Assembly (NCBI GenBank): GCA_029261835.1
Contig: JAJDAO010000061.1
Location: forward strand, 1 to 64,000
From: Deltaproteobacteria bacterium
GTDB lineage: Bacteria; Myxococcota_A; UBA9160; UBA4427
Direction of reading: 5' to 3'
Length of the DNA stretch: 64,000 bases
The notes below the pieces were generated by a model. It was not told where the DNA came from and ran no database searches. It saw only the letters and a list, made by a program, of their open reading frames with translations. Every line of letters starts with the position of its first letter. Positions within the stretch are counted from its first letter, which is position 1. The translations under genes and the position numbers were made by a program. Positions 31,916 through 43,735 of the stretch are shown here, piece by piece.

Positions 31916-33889
31916 TTGAACGAAGCAGCCCGCCGCCGGTCCGACAGCGAGGAGCCGACGCGGGCTTCCGCCGCCACGATGCTGGCACGGCTGCTCGGCT
32001 TCGTGAAGCCGTATGTGCTGCCGTTGATCGCGGTGACGGTCTTCACCCTGATCTTCTCCGCCGGGCGCTTCGGCCGCGCCTACCTGATGAAGCCGCTGCT
32101 CGACGGCGTGCTGCTACCGGTCGCGGCCGGGACGGAGCCGGCGCCCACTGGCTCGGCGAAGACTCGTTCCGACTGGCTCTCGACCTTCATCGCCGAGATT
32201 CTGCCGGCCGAGCAACACGAGAACGCCGCGACGAGCAACGAAGCCGCCGAGGGCGAGGCGAGAGGCAAGGCGACGCGCGACATCGACGGCGTCCGCGAGA
32301 CCTTTCGCGGGCTGCTCTTGGCGGGGCTGCTGATCGTCGTCGTCACGCCAATCGCCCTGCTCGGCCGCGTCTATCTGACCGAATATGCACTCGGGCGCGT
32401 CGACGTGGACATCAAACAGCGGATGGCCGCCAAGCTGCTGGCGCTCCCGCTTGCCAAACACCAGCGAGAGAAGAGCGGCGACATTCTCTCCCGCACCTTC
32501 AACGACGCAGGTGCGGCCCGGGCGGCACTGAGGCTCGTCTTCCAGGAACTCCTGCTGGGACTCGTGATGATCGTCATCGGCCTGTTGACCCTTGTCTACA
32601 TCTCGTGGCCCCTCACGCTGATCTCGCTCGGAGCGGCGCCGATCATCATCGGTGTCCTCACCGTGTTCGGCGAGCGCATCCGGAAGAGCGCCCGGCGACG
32701 CCAAGAACAGCTCGGCGAGGTCACTCAGCGCCTGATCAACATCCTCTCGGGCATCAAGGTCATCAAGGCCTTCGCCGGCGAGAAGATGGAGGGCGATGCA
32801 TTCGCTCGCGAGACTCGCAAGCTCTTCCGACACGACATGCGCGTGGTGCGGAATCGGGTTCTCTCCCGCGCGGTGGTCGAGGCGCTCAATAGCGGAGCGG
32901 GCATCGCACTGCTCGCCCTCGGCTCCATTCTGGTGCTGCGAGGGCACTGGGGGCTGACGACGGGGGACGTCGCCGCCTTTGCCACCGTGTTGGCCACGAC
33001 TTACAGGCCGGTCAAGAACCTCTCCAAGGGATACACCAGGATGATGGAGAACCTGGCATCTACCGAGCGCTTCTTCAAGGTACTCGACGCCGCCGAAGAG
33101 CCGTCCGACGCGCCGGGCGCCGCGAGGCTCGACGGCGTTCAAGCGAGTATCCGATTCGACAACGTGAGCCTGGGCTATCCGGATGACGCCGGCGACGAGC
33201 AGATGGTACTTCGTCATGTCTCGCTCGAGGTCTTCCCCGGCGAGGTCGTCGCCATCGTAGGGCGCACCGGTGCGGGCAAGACGACGCTGATGGACTTGCT
33301 GCTGCGGTTCTACGATCCAAGCGCTGGCTCCATTCACATCGACGGCCGTGACCTGCGAGAGATCGCGCGCAAGAGCCTGCACGAACAGGTGGCCGTGGTC
33401 ACGCAGGACCCATTCCTCTTCGATACGACGATTCGCGAGAACATCCGCTATGGACGCCCCGAGGCCACGGACGACGAAGTTCGCGAGGCAGCGTGTACAG
33501 CTCACGTGGACGAATTCGTCGACCATCTGCCGCTGGGATACGACACAAGGGTCGGGGAGTTCGGCATGCGCCTTTCGGGCGGCCAACGCCAGCGCATTAC
33601 CATCGCTCGCGCACTCCTGAAGCGCCCGGCAATTCTGATCTTCGACGAAGCGACGAGCGCACTCGACGCCAAGACGGAGCGTACCGTTCAGGATGCCATC
33701 GACGGGCTGCGTGGCGAGCGCACGATCTTCCTCGTGGCCCATCGTCTCTCGACGATTCAGCGGGCAGATCGCATCGTTGTGCTGGAAGACGGAGCGATCT
33801 CACAGAGCGGCCGCCACGAGGATCTGTTGGCTGCGGAGGGGCTCTACCGGGAGCTGGCCTCGCTGCAGCGAACGCCGGAAGCTCCGTGA
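31916..33889 (+). CDS. MsbA-like lipid exporter ABC transporter
   Basis: A 657-residue homodimer-type ABC exporter of the MsbA/lipid-flippase group. The membrane domain spans residues 20-330 and has an unusual polar insertion (about residues 55-115, rich in Glu/Ala) between the first two helices. NBD motifs: Walker A IVGRTGAGKTTLMDLL, Q-loop VTQDPFLFD, signature RLSGGQRQRITIARALL, Walker B LIFDEATSALDAKTE and H-loop AHRLSTI, so both catalytic Glu and His are present. The start is TTG at 31916-31918, with GAGGAG 8 nt upstream. It is the third gene of the purM run. Export of lipid A core or a phospholipid is inferred by family. Confidence 0.88.
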   Translation: MNEAARRRSDSEEPTRASAATMLARLLGFVKPYVLPLIAVTVFTLIFSAGRFGRAYLMKPLLDGVLLPVAAGTEPAPTGSAKTRSDWLSTFIAEILPAEQHENAATSNEAAEGEARGKATRDIDGVRETFRGLLLAGLLIVVVTPIALLGRVYLTEYALGRVDVDIKQRMAAKLLALPLAKHQREKSGDILSRTFNDAGAARAALRLVFQELLLGLVMIVIGLLTLVYISWPLTLISLGAAPIIIGVLTVFGERIRKSARRRQEQLGEVTQRLINILSGIKVIKAFAGEKMEGDAFARETRKLFRHDMRVVRNRVLSRAVVEALNSGAGIALLALGSILVLRGHWGLTTGDVAAFATVLATTYRPVKNLSKGYTRMMENLASTERFFKVLDAAEEPSDAPGAARLDGVQASIRFDNVSLGYPDDAGDEQMVLRHVSLEVFPGEVVAIVGRTGAGKTTLMDLLLRFYDPSAGSIHIDGRDLREIARKSLHEQVAVVTQDPFLFDTTIRENIRYGRPEATDDEVREAACTAHVDEFVDHLPLGYDTRVGEFGMRLSGGQRQRITIARALLKRPAILIFDEATSALDAKTERTVQDAIDGLRGERTIFLVAHRLSTIQRADRIVVLEDGAISQSGRHEDLLAAEGLYRELASLQRTPEAP

Positions 33890-36619: not shown

Positions 36620-38224
36620 GTGAAGGCAGCGGAACGACACGAAGACCAGTCGAGCCATTCACTGCGAGCACTCCTGGTGGCCTTCTGCGTCTTTGCCGCT
36701 TGGTACGCCGTCCTTCACGTGTCTTCCGCAAGGTACTTCCCCCTGCCGTGGCCAGACGAATCCTCATTTCTGTGGCCTGCCATCTCGCTGGCTGAAACCG
36801 GAAGCCTGCTCACGCCGGAGCTGATGGAACGGCATCACCCGATGTGGATGCCGCCGGGCCACATGCTGGTCAACGCGCTCGTCTTTCGGCTCTTTGGCTT
36901 CTCTTTTGAGCTCGCCCGCGCGCTATGCGCGGTCGAGATTCTCGGCCTGTTTGCGGGCCTGGTGTGGTTCAATCGGCGCTCGCGGGCGCCACTCGCCTCC
37001 ACGCTGCTGTGCGGAGTCTTTCTACTGAGCACACACTTCGTCGCGGCTGGCAACATTGCCAGAATGGAGGCTCTCCTGCTGTGCCTGCTCGGCGGGGCCC
37101 TGCCCCTGTTGGGCTCCGGCCGGATCCTGGCCGGACTGGCGCTGCTCGCGATGACCCCCCTGGTCCACCCGAACGGGATCTACTTCATGCTCGCCGGCAT
37201 CACCTTCGCGCTGGCGAGCTCACAGCATCGCGCCCGGCTCTTCCAACAGAACCTTCGCAGCCACGGCAGAGAGTGGCTCGTCGTCATTCTGTGTCTCGCG
37301 TTCTGGTTGAGCTACGCCGCCTATGCGATCAGCCAATGGTCCGACTTCGTCGTGCAAATGAGCGCCCAGCTCGAGCGAAAGATGATGCGGGATTCATTGG
37401 CGTGGCTGATGACGCGCGGGACGTTGATTTTCGCGATCAGCGCGGCCACCTGCCTCATCTGCGGCTGGTGGCGCAGTCCGCGCGTCCTACTTCTCTCGTG
37501 CCTGGCGTCGGCGGCCTGGACGGCTCCGGCTCTGGGGCTCGAGACGTGGTACGCCGTCTATCGAGAGCTGGCATTCCTGCTCCTCTCCCTGGCGGCGCTG
37601 GAGCTCGCCTGCGATCTGGGCGCAAGCTACTTCCCTCCTCAGTGGGCTCGCTCCACGGCGGTGGCCGTCAGCTCGGCTCTGTTGGTGCTGCACTGGGCCG
37701 CGGGAAGCCTGCCCTTTCCCCCCGGCTCGCCGGCTCGGCTTCTCATTCACGGCATGCGACCGCGGCCCGACATCGACTACGCGCCCGAGCACGAGCTGGC
37801 GCGAGTCCTCGCAGCATTGTCTCCCTTCGAAGGTTGTCGGGAGCCAGTGACCATCCGTGTCTTTCCACGAGCTGACAGTCTGCTGCTCTACGAACGCCTC
37901 GAGAGAGGGCTGTTTCGCTTCTCCTCGCCTCCCTATCTGCTGCGCCAGCTCGACCGCGAGTATGAACCCCTGCCGTGGGACATCTACTTGTTTCACGTCA
38001 TCCGGCACCCATCCTGGCTGAAGCTGCCCAGGAAGTTCGAGCTTCGAGCAGCGGGAGTGGATCCCGATTCGCGCGAGCACCTGCTCTTTGAGACGCCCGA
38101 CGCTTCCAGGTGGTACATGCGCGTGCGCGAGGCCCGAATCCGAGAAAAATGCGGCACGACCTCCGGAGACCGCTCCGCGAGTCGCCGGGCAGCCCCAGCC
38201 GAACGAAGGCCCCCCGAGCGCTAA
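36620..38224 (+). CDS. Polytopic membrane protein, probable GT-C (PMT/ArnT-like) glycosyltransferase
   Basis: A 534-residue inner-membrane protein with about nine to ten hydrophobic helices between residues 15 and 370. A C-terminal soluble, probably periplasmic, region of about 160 residues follows. The first extracytoplasmic loop has PDESSFLWPAISLAETGSL, which fits the acidic-motif loop of GT-C enzymes that use polyprenyl-phosphate sugars. A further HHPMWMPPGH motif follows. The start is GTG at 36620-36622, with a purine-rich GGAGGG upstream but poorly spaced. Family membership is by loop motif and topology; donor and acceptor are unknown. Its TAA stop lies in the loop of the terminator shared with the convergent selenoprotein gene. 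Confidence 0.68.
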   Translation: MKAAERHEDQSSHSLRALLVAFCVFAAWYAVLHVSSARYFPLPWPDESSFLWPAISLAETGSLLTPELMERHHPMWMPPGHMLVNALVFRLFGFSFELARALCAVEILGLFAGLVWFNRRSRAPLASTLLCGVFLLSTHFVAAGNIARMEALLLCLLGGALPLLGSGRILAGLALLAMTPLVHPNGIYFMLAGITFALASSQHRARLFQQNLRSHGREWLVVILCLAFWLSYAAYAISQWSDFVVQMSAQLERKMMRDSLAWLMTRGTLIFAISAATCLICGWWRSPRVLLLSCLASAAWTAPALGLETWYAVYRELAFLLLSLAALELACDLGASYFPPQWARSTAVAVSSALLVLHWAAGSLPFPPGSPARLLIHGMRPRPDIDYAPEHELARVLAALSPFEGCREPVTIRVFPRADSLLLYERLERGLFRFSSPPYLLRQLDREYEPLPWDIYLFHVIRHPSWLKLPRKFELRAAGVDPDSREHLLFETPDASRWYMRVREARIREKCGTTSGDRSASRRAAPAERRPPER

Positions 38225-38264: not shown

Positions 38265-39005
38265 TCAGGACTTGTTCTTCAACTCATCGTCGATGACGCG
38301 CTTGAACGCCTCGAAGGGCTGCGCTCCAGAGAGGAAGCGACCATTGAGAAAGAAGGCGGGCGTGCCCGTCACACCGACCGCTCCGGCCTCCTTGGTGTCG
38401 GAATCGATTCGTCTCTTGACCTTCGCCGATTCGAGATCGCTCTTGAACCGATCGATGTCGAGCCCAATCTCGGCGGCATACGCCAGGTATTTCTCGGGGC
38501 TCATCTCACGCTGAGCGCTGAATATCCTGTCGTGCATCTCCCAGAACTTGCCCTGCAAGTACGCGGCCTCCGCCGCTTTGTGGGCGGCTGGCGCCTTGCT
38601 GTGCATAGAAAGCGGGAGGTGCTTGAACACGATCTGCACCTTCTCGCCATACTCCTGCTCGATCTTCTTGAGGGTCGGACCGACCCTCGCGCAGAAGGGT
38701 CACTGGAAGTCGGCCCAGCCGACGATCGTCACCGCCGCGTCTTGCGGTCCCCGACTGGGCGCGCCTGCCAGGGCAACCTCATAGCGGCGGTTTGGATCGG
38801 GACGGGCGGGCCGAGCCGCCCGCGCGCTGGGCTCGCCCCTCGCCGCGCTCGGCAATGCGTCGAGCGCCTCTGCCAGCTCTTGCAGCGTCTCACTGCCCCG
38901 GTCGATGGACTTCGCCAGGAAGTAGCTCGACCCCGCAATGGCGCCGGCGAGCAGAAGCGAAGCCACGATCAACGGGCCTCCCACAGAGTCTCTTGCCAAT
39001 TTCAC
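38265..39005 (-). CDS. DsbA-family thiol-disulfide oxidoreductase, selenoprotein (Sec at UGA)
   Basis: A 246-residue envelope thiol oxidoreductase. The N-terminal anchor (GPLIVASLLLAGAIAGSSYFL) is followed by a polar linker and a DsbA-type thioredoxin domain. The active site reads VTIVGWADFQ-UGA-PFC-ARVG, so the first Cys of the CPFC motif is a TGA (38702-38700, residue 102). The frame continues without interruption through KKIEQEYGEKVQIVFKHLPL, the helical insertion and the cis-Pro loop GVTGTPAFFLNGR to the stop at 38265. A bacterial SECIS-like hairpin lies right after the UGA. A dead or mis-sequenced gene is unlikely, because both flanks are fully conserved and in one frame. GTG at 39003-39005 follows GAGGAG with only 2 nt spacing; a TTG at 38999 with 8 nt spacing is an alternative. 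Confidence 0.9.
38670..38688 (-). promoter_or_regulatory. bSECIS-like hairpin for selenocysteine insertion
   Basis: Immediately downstream of the UGA, after 11 nt, the mRNA reads GAGGGUCG-GUC-CGACCCUC. This is a perfect 8-bp stem with a G as the first apical loop base. The loop starts 20 nt after the UGA, inside the 16-37 nt range known for bacterial SECIS elements recognised by SelB. Confidence 0.85.
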
Positions 39006-39412
39006 GTCTCCTCGGTCAGGCTGTGACGCGCCCGATTCGGGTGCGAGTCAGAGTCCAATGATCGGCGGACAAGCGTGAAACGCACGCGAAAAACGTAAAC
39101 CGGTCACCCAGCTCTCTCGCCGCCCGTCTGCCCACCGAATCGCCTTGCACTCACGATGCATTAGCTCTCTTCTTGCCGATTGCCCAGAGTGTCATTCTGA
39201 TACCGACAGCGATTTTTCATTCACTTCCCGAATAAATCGGGTCAAAATCAACTCATCGGAGCCAGCAGTGGCCCACGACCGGAACTCGGACAGCGAGTCG
39301 AAGCGACCGCGACAGAGCCGAACAGGGTCGGGTACTCACGATGCTCTCGGGAGTGCGACGCCTCCAATGCGGCGGAGGCGCCGTCGGATGACTCGATCGA
39401 GCAGACCCGGCC

Positions 39413-39569: not shown

Positions 39570-40178
39570 TCAGCAGCTCTCCCGATCCAGCAGGACACGC
39601 CTCAGCTCGGGCGCGCGAACTCTCAGACACCGCGCAAGCTTTCGGAAGCGGCTCTGCATCGTGCCGAGTGCGACGCCCTGCTCCCGGGCGATCTCGGGCA
39701 GAGTCGCTCCCTCCATGTAGGCCACGATCGTGCGCCGATCGTCGGCACTCAACTGGCTCAGCGCCTGCCGGATGGCGCTGCGTTTCCATACCCGGGCGGC
39801 CAGCTCCTCTGGATCCCGCACGACGGGCCGCGTTTGCCAGGGACCCGAGAGAGGCCCGCCCGCTGAATCCGACCGTTCCATCTCGTCGGGTGACCCGATC
39901 ATCACCTCTCTCTTCAAGACTTGCGAGATGCAGGTCCTCGCGGCATCCACGACCGCGCCATGAATTCGTATGGACACATAGGCGGAGAGCTGCTGCTCAT
40001 GCACGTCCTGCCGTCGGTCACGCAGCGCCTTGAAGAGCCCCCAGTAACCCGCCGACAACAGCTCATCGCTCAAGTGGGGGCTCAGCATGAAGCTTCGCTG
40101 GACCTTGTTCGCAAAGAAGCGAACGCGATGCGCGTAACGACGCGCCAAGGCCTCAGTCTCTTGCTCGGCTGCCTCCAC
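39570..40178 (-). CDS. Sigma-70 family RNA polymerase sigma factor (FliA/SigB-like group 3)
   Basis: A 202-residue sigma factor with region 2 (LARRYAHRVRFFANKVQ, then LLSAGYWGLFKALRD, the core-binding and -10 recognition part, and LSAYVSIRIHGAVVDAART). Region 4 follows (RSAIRQALSQLSADDRRTIVAYMEGATLPEIAREQGVALGTMQSRFRKL). Region 3 is shortened. The size and the IRGAxxD-type motif (IRIHGAVVDAAR) fit the flagellar/stress group, but no flagellar genes are nearby. I start at GTG 40176-40178, which has AGAGGG 7 nt upstream. A TTG 17 codons earlier is possible. It lies 154 nt downstream of the TPR-kinase gene in the same orientation. No anti-sigma factor is visible. Confidence 0.82.
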   Translation of the reverse strand: MEAAEQETEALARRYAHRVRFFANKVQRSFMLSPHLSDELLSAGYWGLFKALRDRRQDVHEQQLSAYVSIRIHGAVVDAARTCISQVLKREVMIGSPDEMERSDSAGGPLSGPWQTRPVVRDPEELAARVWKRSAIRQALSQLSADDRRTIVAYMEGATLPEIAREQGVALGTMQSRFRKLARCLRVRAPELRRVLLDRESC

Positions 40179-40331
40179 CCGCTGGCCCTCTCCGTCACCA
40201 CAGCGACTTGCCTGGCGCAAGCAAGACAAGCGGATTCTTCAGTATTCGGGCAACAGGCGATGTGATACCAGTCACAAGGTGCCGGCCCGAGCGCGGTGAG
40301 GAGAACTACCGACGCGAGCGAATCGACAACC

Positions 40332-43300
40332 TCAACCCGTGCTGGAAGGCGAGCGCTTGATCGATTCGAGGCGGAGACAGAGTTCGCCCGCGGACGGGCA
40401 GCGCTCGCCGACATCCTTCGCCAGCAGGTCGAGCACGAGTTCCGCCAACGAGTCGGGGATATCGACGGCGAGGTCACGCGGGTCCGGGGGGGGCGTGTGA
40501 CGGTGATGGTAGGCGATATCACCCTGTGAGAAGGGGACGGAACCGGTAGCCAACTCGAAGAGCGTCACACCGAGTGAGTAGAGATCGGTCCGCTGGTCGA
40601 CCACGCCTCCGACGACCTGCTCGGGAGACATGTAGAATGGTGTGCCGCTGATGACAGTGGTCCCGCCTCGCACCTCCTCGAACATCTTGGCCAGACCGAA
40701 GTCCATGATCTTGACCAGCTTGTCCGTCGTGAGAAAGAGGTTCGCCGTCTTGATATCGCGATGAACGATGCCCTGCGCGTGAGCGTACTGCAAACCCGCA
40801 GCCACCTGTAACCCGACGTTGACCGCGCTGGCGGGCGACAGCCGTCCCTTCTCCTTGAGGATCCGGTGGAAGGGCTCCCCGTCGAGTAGCTCCATCGTGA
40901 TGAAGAAGTTCCCGTCCTCCTGGTCAGTGTCGTAGACGGTTACGATGTTCGAGTGATTGAGCCGTGCGGCAGCCTGAGCTTCACGCAAGAAGAGCTGGAC
41001 GGCCCGCGGATGGTGTCTTCGCAAGTCCTCGGGCAGACGCTTGAGCGCCACGATCCGATCGAGTCGTCGATCCCGCGCCTTGAATACGACGCCCATTCCG
41101 CCTCGCCCGATTTCCTCCAGGATCTCGTAGCGGTACTCCGCCACGAAGGCCGTGGCGGCCTCGCTCCCGGAGCCCCCGATCGAGCTGCGGGCCAGGCGAT
41201 CCGCCGCGCTGCGCTGCTTGCGCAGCAACTCGATGCGAGAGGCGACATTCGGGTAGGTGGGTTCGCGTTGCCGCAGGTCTTCGAGCACCTCCAGCGCGCG
41301 CTCGACACTCCCCGCGTGCTCCAGCAGGTCGGCGAGCCGCGCGTATTTGTCCGCGGGTGCCGTGCCAGGCCGATAGGTCGCGATGTGCTGCTCCAGCTTC
41401 TGTGCTGCGAGATCCCAGTGCCCTTCGCGCTCGAAGGCGGCCGCGAGCAACCAGCTGGCTTCGGCGTAGTCGGAATCCTCGGGTGCAATGCACTGCAGCA
41501 AGCGAATCGCGCGCGGACGTTGCTCGTGCTCGAGTGCGATCTTCGCGGCGCGGAAGGTCTCTCCACGACGCTCGAGGGCATTGATCCACTTGCCCACCGC
41601 TCGCGCCTCCCGATAGCACTCGATTGCGCGATCGAAGTCCAGCGCCTCCTCGTACGCCTGACCTGCCTGGACGAGATCATTGGCCTGCTTGTGCATTTCA
41701 GCGGCCTTGAGCGGCTCCTCGGCCTGCATGTAGAGCGTTGCCGCCCGGCCGTAGTCGCCGAGACCAGCCCGCAACTCGGCGGCCTCGAGGTGCCTGCCCG
41801 CCGACTCGAAATAATCGGCTGCGCGCTGGACCTCTCCGCGCTCCCGGTTCAACTGTGCCAGCATGAGATAGGCGCGCTCTGCCTGCCCATCGCGCTCGAG
41901 TGCCTGGGCGACGGTTTCGATATCGCCTCTCAGATACGGATCGACGGCGGGCGGACAGCCTTTGAAGACCACCTCGCCGCCGGCCAGATCGATCTCTACG
42001 CGTGTCGGCTGAAAGCTGTTGACATCGACCTCGCGCACGACCACGCGATCACCGCAACCCACGACCAGGCGATGAACGCCCTTCTTCAGGAAGAGTCTGA
42101 CCGAGCTGCCGTTTCCCCGTCTCAGCGAATCGGCCACGCCACGGGCCACTACCGACACGTCCTCCGCCGGCTTGTCGTCCCACAGGACGCGTACGTCGAC
42201 CGGACACTTGTCTGGGTTGGCATCGTACTCGAGCCGCACCGTCCGCCGATGGCGCACACGAGCCACCTTCTTGTCGCGAACGTCGGCCAGGACCTCCTCG
42301 GTGTCGGGATCCATCAACAGTCCTTCGACCGTGACGTAGTAGCGACGTGCCAACAGCCGCCGGAAGTGTGTCTCCCGATTGACGAGATGATGCTCGTGCC
42401 GCGTCGAGACGCCGCCCTTCAGGATCGCGGAACGCACATTCTGCGAGGGACGACTCCAGCGCGCCTTGCTGGTCGCGACCCGAACCCGGAAGACCCCGCG
42501 CAGCTCCTCCGGATACTGAACCGCGACAGATAGATCACCACGCTGCCGCATCAGGCGCAGCAGGACCAGGAACGCCAACAGTACCGAAGCGATCGTCGCG
42601 AGGGTTCTTCGGCGAGCGCCCGTCCCGACCCAGTCCATGCCGGCGGCGATGGCATCGCGTACCTGAGGCGGTAGGAACCCCTGCACCTCTTGGGCGACCG
42701 TCTCGACCCGAGCGAGCCAGCCGACCGAACGCGGCTCCGGCCAGATCGGCGGGGATGCATGAGCGCGCGGCGGCGCGGCGAAATCAATCGGAAAGCGACT
42801 GCGTTCCAGCCATTCGGCCACCGTGCGATCCGACGGCGCCAAGCCCTCCGCTTCCGCGAGGGCGATTTGGGCATCGCGACGCCGTCCTTCGAGCAGGTAG
42901 ATCTTGCCGAGATCCTGGTGGATCTTGGCACGCAGCTCAACGAACGCGATGGGATCTTCGGTCTTGTTCAGCAGCGTCAGAGCGGCCAGGTACGCGGCTT
43001 CTGCGGCGGACCCATCGCCGCTGAGCAGGCGAGCGCGCCCGAGTCCGCGCCAACACTCCAGCTCGTCGGTCCCCAGCGAAATGGCACGCTCGTAGGCAAA
43101 ACGGGCACCCTGCCAATCCTGCGCCGCTTCGAATAGGGCCGCCGCTCGCAACGCGGCGCGCTGCTGACGAGCGCCGGCCGCATCGAGCGAGTCCCGAGGC
43201 GCGGCGGGGGACGGCCGATAGCGCTCGATCCGCAGCAGCCGCTCGGCCTCGTGCTCGAGCGGCGCGAGTCCGAGTCGGCCCATGAACTCGCCGCCGAGCG

Positions 43301-43499
43301 GACGGCTCACCGTCCACTCACCCGGTGGCACGGTCGGCGCGTAGGGGATCCGAATGGGCTCGACGCTGTCGAGCCGCTGCGCCAGCAGCCGATCGTCACC
43401 CGCATCGATAGCGGATGCCATCGCGAGCCCTGCCAGCAGCGATGTCGCAGCCAGCACGCGAACGAATCTGCAGAGCACAGTCAACGCAGTCGAGGACAC
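40332..43499 (-). CDS. TPR-containing membrane Ser/Thr protein kinase with C-terminal kinase domain
   Basis: A 1055-residue Hanks-type kinase in a reversed layout. An N-terminal signal/anchor (RVLAATSLLAGLAMASA) comes first, then an exported region with TPR-like helices (FEAAQDWQGARFAYERAISLG, about residues 90-230). A second membrane helix follows (TLATIASVLLAFLVLLRL, about 298-318), then a beta-rich segment, another TPR array (about 540-770) and the kinase domain at about 790-1050. Kinase motifs: GRGGMGVVFKA, VALKRL, HRDIKTANLFL, MDFGLA and GTPFYMSPEQ. The GTG start (43497-43499) has GCGAGG 6 nt upstream and yields the signal sequence directly. TPRs on both sides of the membrane suggest it links envelope and cytosolic protein partners. 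Ligands and substrates are unknown. Confidence 0.85.
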   Translation of the reverse strand: MSSTALTVLCRFVRVLAATSLLAGLAMASAIDAGDDRLLAQRLDSVEPIRIPYAPTVPPGEWTVSRPLGGEFMGRLGLAPLEHEAERLLRIERYRPSPAAPRDSLDAAGARQQRAALRAAALFEAAQDWQGARFAYERAISLGTDELECWRGLGRARLLSGDGSAAEAAYLAALTLLNKTEDPIAFVELRAKIHQDLGKIYLLEGRRRDAQIALAEAEGLAPSDRTVAEWLERSRFPIDFAAPPRAHASPPIWPEPRSVGWLARVETVAQEVQGFLPPQVRDAIAAGMDWVGTGARRRTLATIASVLLAFLVLLRLMRQRGDLSVAVQYPEELRGVFRVRVATSKARWSRPSQNVRSAILKGGVSTRHEHHLVNRETHFRRLLARRYYVTVEGLLMDPDTEEVLADVRDKKVARVRHRRTVRLEYDANPDKCPVDVRVLWDDKPAEDVSVVARGVADSLRRGNGSSVRLFLKKGVHRLVVGCGDRVVVREVDVNSFQPTRVEIDLAGGEVVFKGCPPAVDPYLRGDIETVAQALERDGQAERAYLMLAQLNRERGEVQRAADYFESAGRHLEAAELRAGLGDYGRAATLYMQAEEPLKAAEMHKQANDLVQAGQAYEEALDFDRAIECYREARAVGKWINALERRGETFRAAKIALEHEQRPRAIRLLQCIAPEDSDYAEASWLLAAAFEREGHWDLAAQKLEQHIATYRPGTAPADKYARLADLLEHAGSVERALEVLEDLRQREPTYPNVASRIELLRKQRSAADRLARSSIGGSGSEAATAFVAEYRYEILEEIGRGGMGVVFKARDRRLDRIVALKRLPEDLRRHHPRAVQLFLREAQAAARLNHSNIVTVYDTDQEDGNFFITMELLDGEPFHRILKEKGRLSPASAVNVGLQVAAGLQYAHAQGIVHRDIKTANLFLTTDKLVKIMDFGLAKMFEEVRGGTTVISGTPFYMSPEQVVGGVVDQRTDLYSLGVTLFELATGSVPFSQGDIAYHHRHTPPPDPRDLAVDIPDSLAELVLDLLAKDVGERCPSAGELCLRLESIKRSPSSTG

Positions 43500-43735
43500 G
43501 ATCGACCTCGCCTCCAGCACGAGTCCGCGCCGGCTCACCGCCGACTGGCAGGCCCCTCTTGGCCTCCCGAGCGTCAAGCGGTACCGGGGCTGCTCGGGAA
43601 CCCCGCCCGGCGCCAAGCATAGCGCCCCGCCCCCGGCCTCGAACGCCGCGCGCCGGTTCACGTCAGACTGAAGCGGGGCCTGGATCTGATGCCCCTCGGG
43701 GGCGGAAAGCCTCTTGGCTGTGGCTGCCCGCCTGC

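Follow-up and report, generated by a model that had tools for sequence, protein, structure and literature searches.

The locus and its gene

The window, by which we mean the whole 64,000-nucleotide stretch of DNA analyzed, carries on its minus strand, at 39005-38265, a DsbA-like gene that yields a protein of 246 residues when its single internal UGA, codon 102, is read as selenocysteine (Sec) (Table 1). The initial annotation had placed the gene correctly without giving its strand. With TGA read as Sec, the translation runs VKLARDSVGGPLIVASLLLAGAIAGSSYFLA...VTIVGWADFQ-U-PFCARVGPTLKKIEQEYG...GVTGTPAFFLNGRFLSGAQPFEAFKRVIDDELKNKS and ends at an ordinary TGA stop. The frame shows no damage other than the UGA, and homologues match across residues 1-246, in agreement with the earlier description of a UGA-PFC active site lying in one frame that is intact on both sides. 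Under the standard code (table 11) the same DNA is read as two ORFs, 38700-39005 (101 aa) and 38265-38639 (124 aa), which is the split foreseen for a conventional gene caller. Judged by eye, the GAGGAG upstream of the gene lies 2 nt from the GTG at 39005 and 8 nt from a TTG at 38999-38997, and the true start may be this TTG rather than the GTG; a search for a sigma-70 promoter gave no match.

The protein matches the Pfam families Thioredoxin_4 (7e-27) and DSBA (1.5e-26), and some of its relatives with solved structures were deposited under the name DsbA (4pwo, E 4e-21). Besides the Sec gene, its own genome has three DsbA-like paralogues. One of them, a Cys-type protein at C48:6726-7436, is 54% identical over residues 9-243 and shares the DsbA/Thioredoxin_4 assignment, but has a CPFC active site and lacks the hairpin apex described below. 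The flanking genes give no hint of the function of the DsbA-like gene. At the window's end, a 16S rRNA gene occupies positions 1-1195 on the minus strand and is cut by the boundary.

Table 1. Coordinates of the DsbA-like gene, its elements, and its neighbors in the window.
Feature	Position	Strand	Basis or remark
Membrane-protein-like ORF	36620-38224		Convergent with the Sec gene; no Pfam match
Predicted DsbA-like selenoprotein gene	38265-39005	minus	Translation; Pfam; homologues aligned across residues 1-246
GVTGTPAFFLNG segment with cis-proline typical of DsbA folds	approx. 38325-38390	minus	Translation; alignment to solved DsbA proteins
bSECIS-type hairpin, GAGGGTCG-GTC-CGACCCTC	38670-38688	minus	Folding; alignment of Sec copies; published model
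TGC, resolving Cys105 of UPFC	38691-38693	minus	Translation
UGA, predicted Sec102, opening the U-P-F-C active site	38700-38702	minus	TGA shared by 19 distinct homologous sequences; most others have Cys
N-terminal hydrophobic segment GGPLIVASLLLAGAIAGSSYFLA, a probable membrane anchor	approx. 38900-38990	minus	Inferred from sequence
GAGGAG, ribosome-binding-like site	39008-39013	minus	Inferred from sequence
Sigma-70 region 4 protein	39570-40229		Flanks the Sec gene
Large protein, TPR repeats and C-terminal Ser/Thr kinase domain	40332-43733	minus	Adjoins the sigma-70 region 4 protein

Evidence for UGA-102 as a probable selenocysteine codon

Of 379 genomes from the phylum, 376 contain relatives of the protein. 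Named genomes contributed 78 loci, the majority from Myxococcota or Deltaproteobacteria MAGs, and these matches are our ground for placing the window in or near Myxococcota. Cysteine had been expected at the U102 column in DsbA homologues, and it is indeed the usual residue: among all matches, duplicates included, the column holds C in 216, U in 24, S in three, and A in one. Removal of duplicates leaves 210 distinct Cys sequences and 19 distinct Sec sequences, the latter (the window gene and 18 others) coming from 14 genomes and sharing the active-site consensus DFQ-U-(P/G)-(F/Y)-C. A TGC or TGT codon becomes TGA by a single-base change and the draft genome consists of 104 contigs, both of which would suit a nonsense mutation or a sequencing error in a Cys-type dsbA; against this, the same TGA and hairpin recur in 18 other distinct sequences, including some from other assemblies, and the reading frame is otherwise undamaged. 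On these sequence comparisons, mutation or error is effectively excluded.

Beginning 11 nt past the UGA is a 19-nt hairpin, the perfect one named in the initial annotation, in which all eight pairs (8/8) form beneath a GUC triloop. The published bSECIS model describes an apical loop of 3-9 nt with G in its first two positions, a stem of 4-16 bp, a distance of 16-37 nt from the UGA, and a minimum free energy of at most -7.5 (PMC13188914); the hairpin agrees with it in its GUC triloop, 8 bp, 19 nt, and -12.7 kcal/mol for the hairpin alone. The folding energy itself is unremarkable (z = -1.43, 51 nt), and we set aside the energy of a single hairpin as proof. All 19 Sec copies have the 9-nt apex TCGGTCCGA, whereas none of the 210 Cys copies has it (p 3.8e-28); set against only the 70 closest Cys copies, again with none, the contrast gives p 8.8e-20. 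Both p-values overstate independence because the sequences are related. The arginine at the stem base is encoded by an AGR codon in 18/19 Sec and 8/193 Cys copies. In a gap-free alignment of 18 Sec copies, one stem pair varies between G-C (14), A-U (3), and G-U (1), remaining paired in every case through changes that are synonymous on both sides (AGG/AGA and ACC/ACT); the other seven of the eight pairs are invariant, so covariation rests on this one pair, and a shuffle control showed nothing unusual in how many pairs covary (280/500), although the cell counts were unusual (3/500). The nineteenth Sec copy, L133 (with L082), is divergent, with a UGYC motif and a different stem below the TCGGTCCGA apex.

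The full 33-nt pattern of TGA, 11 nt, and hairpin occurs 11 times in 80 genomes of the order, in 10 of the 80, against none for the reversed control. It is the conservation of the TGA column, the apex, and this 33-nt pattern, rather than folding energy, that places the claim beyond chance, and we consider it very probable that UGA-102 encodes selenocysteine in a genuine DsbA-like gene. Could the UGA instead be a true stop followed by reinitiation, the two halves being made as separate proteins? Both halves are open as ORFs of 101 and 124 aa, but the split would fall within the active site and cut it off from Cys105, the next listed start, at 38639, lies past the motif, and a hairpin found only in TGA copies would be left unexplained; we regard such a pair of proteins as extremely improbable.

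A search for selA, selB, selC, and selD had been proposed beforehand, with absence of selB/selC as the outcome that would speak against selenocysteine, and all four are present in the genome, which favors it: selB on contig C26, selA on C78, the selC tRNA-Sec with its UCA anticodon on C21, and selD at C98:20944-21870. This selD (L011, G000) has one in-frame TGA, in VPAGG-U-ARKLG, and would thus itself be a selenoprotein; a GUC triloop caps its hairpin too, which lies 27 nt past its UGA as counted from the printed structure. selB was found in 12/12 other TGA-bearing genomes tested, but hardly any of the Cys-type relatives tested lacked it either; having selB is therefore permissive rather than discriminating, and the gene fails as a marker separating Sec from Cys genomes. 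In the mechanism we favor, SelB and the Sec-tRNA(UCA) would recognize the hairpin just past UGA-102 and insert selenocysteine as the attacking residue of the UPFC active site.

When the same genome was searched for a TGA followed by the TCGGTCCGA apex, 21 partly overlapping matches were returned, of which the window gene alone has both a redox motif and a recognizable homologous frame. One of the remaining matches, L164/L165 (G000 C103, ~33023-33057), has a TGA in a long frame, with 249 codons upstream and 460 downstream, followed by the apex; it reads SSGSSD-U-TTGASMLG with no visible redox motif, and may be a coincidence or two genes.

Sec and Cys copies in the family tree

Close relatives differ in carrying the Sec or the Cys version, and both versions can occur in a single genome. 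A tree of 90 domains, in which the Sec letter was masked and the motif columns were kept, implies 11 changes between Sec and Cys, at least four of them forced by supported branches. A tree of 54 rows, 11 of them Sec, in which the active-site and hairpin columns were masked, implies five changes (bootstrap range 5-6), at least two of them forced, and on it a single clade for the 11 Sec rows is rejected (p-AU 0.006). The hairpins are nearly identical although the Sec genes are not a single clade, a combination that points to repeated exchange of Sec and Cys or to transfer of the UGA-hairpin segment.

Some Cys copies retain what may be traces of a Sec past. RVGPTL, the peptide encoded by the hairpin, is kept in six of the 70 close Cys copies, two of which, L135 and L137, are sister to a Sec gene (97/91 in the masked tree), and the Cys copy L026 still forms a GGGTCGGCCCGACCC hairpin. 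Such remnants are compatible with loss of Sec to Cys, without being proof of it. Our tentative reading, to which we give somewhat less than an even chance, is that the UGA-hairpin segment moved between separate DsbA-like lineages through gene conversion or short recombination, or else that Cys repeatedly took the place of an ancestral Sec, with the RVGPTL peptide as an occasional scar. If either were true it would be notable, since changes from Sec to Cys in bacteria are reported to be rare and found mainly in FdhA and SelD (PMC13188914). The scattered distribution makes the family suitable for studying how bacteria gain and lose selenocysteine.

Tandem DsbA domains also occur in related Myxococcota: the MAG Baikal-deep-G131 encodes such proteins, L061 and L069, each with two predicted Sec residues. 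L061 (frame from 2538) has two UPFC domains and L069 (frame 0) has four domains with U, C, C, and U; the same hairpin follows each TGA.

Probable redox role and relation to known selenoproteins

The protein is likely a thiol-disulfide oxidoreductase acting outside the cytoplasmic membrane, probably anchored through its N-terminal hydrophobic segment. We picture a DsbA/Thioredoxin_4 oxidoreductase whose active site would face outward and whose Sec/Cys pair would swap disulfides with substrate proteins by way of a selenenylsulfide; a redox role altered by the putative Sec at the attacking position is plausible. No match to DsbB was found in the genome, and for this reason we propose a VKOR-DsbA/Thioredoxin_4 fusion encoded there (L144 1297-2766) as the probable oxidizing partner, though another protein might serve.

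The direction of the redox reaction, which we judge from genome content, is much less certain than the coding of Sec. Selenol chemistry at the attacking position would favor fast reductive reactions, and the genome encodes a DsbD_TM (DsbD/CcdA-like) protein; both would suit a Sec protein whose main role, fed by this DsbD_TM protein, is reduction or isomerization instead of oxidation. The DsbA/Thioredoxin_4 fold and sequence, with nearest solved relatives named DsbA, the lack of a visible dimerization domain, and the presence of the VKOR-DsbA fusion argue the other way, and we think a mainly reductive or isomerizing role possible but rather doubtful.

Among curated protein families, the best NCBIfam match is NF041057 (residues 50-240, E 1.6e-30), the model of the Rcas_1661 family of thioredoxin-like (seleno)lipoproteins, which a 2026 review classes as DsbG-like. 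The score of 106.4 bits is below the curated cut-off of 190, so we do not assign the protein to this family, and no lipobox was seen in it.

That UxxC selenoproteins with a thioredoxin fold were already known, as the initial annotation had pointed out, is borne out by the literature, in which DsbA-like UxxC proteins are a named family. Nine such sequences were described from the Sargasso Sea (PMC1088965), one is listed for Anaeromyxobacter dehalogenans among complete genomes (PMC1794560), and others come from GOS samples (PMC2398784); in the open-access literature, we found no paper naming both Myxococcota and selenoproteins. DsbA-like UxxC selenoproteins have been known since 2005-2006, and what is new here is a further member, a well-supported predicted selenoprotein that standard annotation would cut in two. 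The family is called DsbA-like protein form 1 and is defined by PF01323 and UxxC (PMC1088965, PMC13188914); the window protein scores 93.8 bits against PF01323, above the cut-off of 25.6, and its UPFC supplies the UxxC motif. Compared by description rather than by sequence alignment, the window gene differs from form 1 in coming from an uncultured lineage, and has in common with it the DsbA fold, the predicted Sec where the first active-site Cys would stand, and the bSECIS hairpin directly following the UGA.
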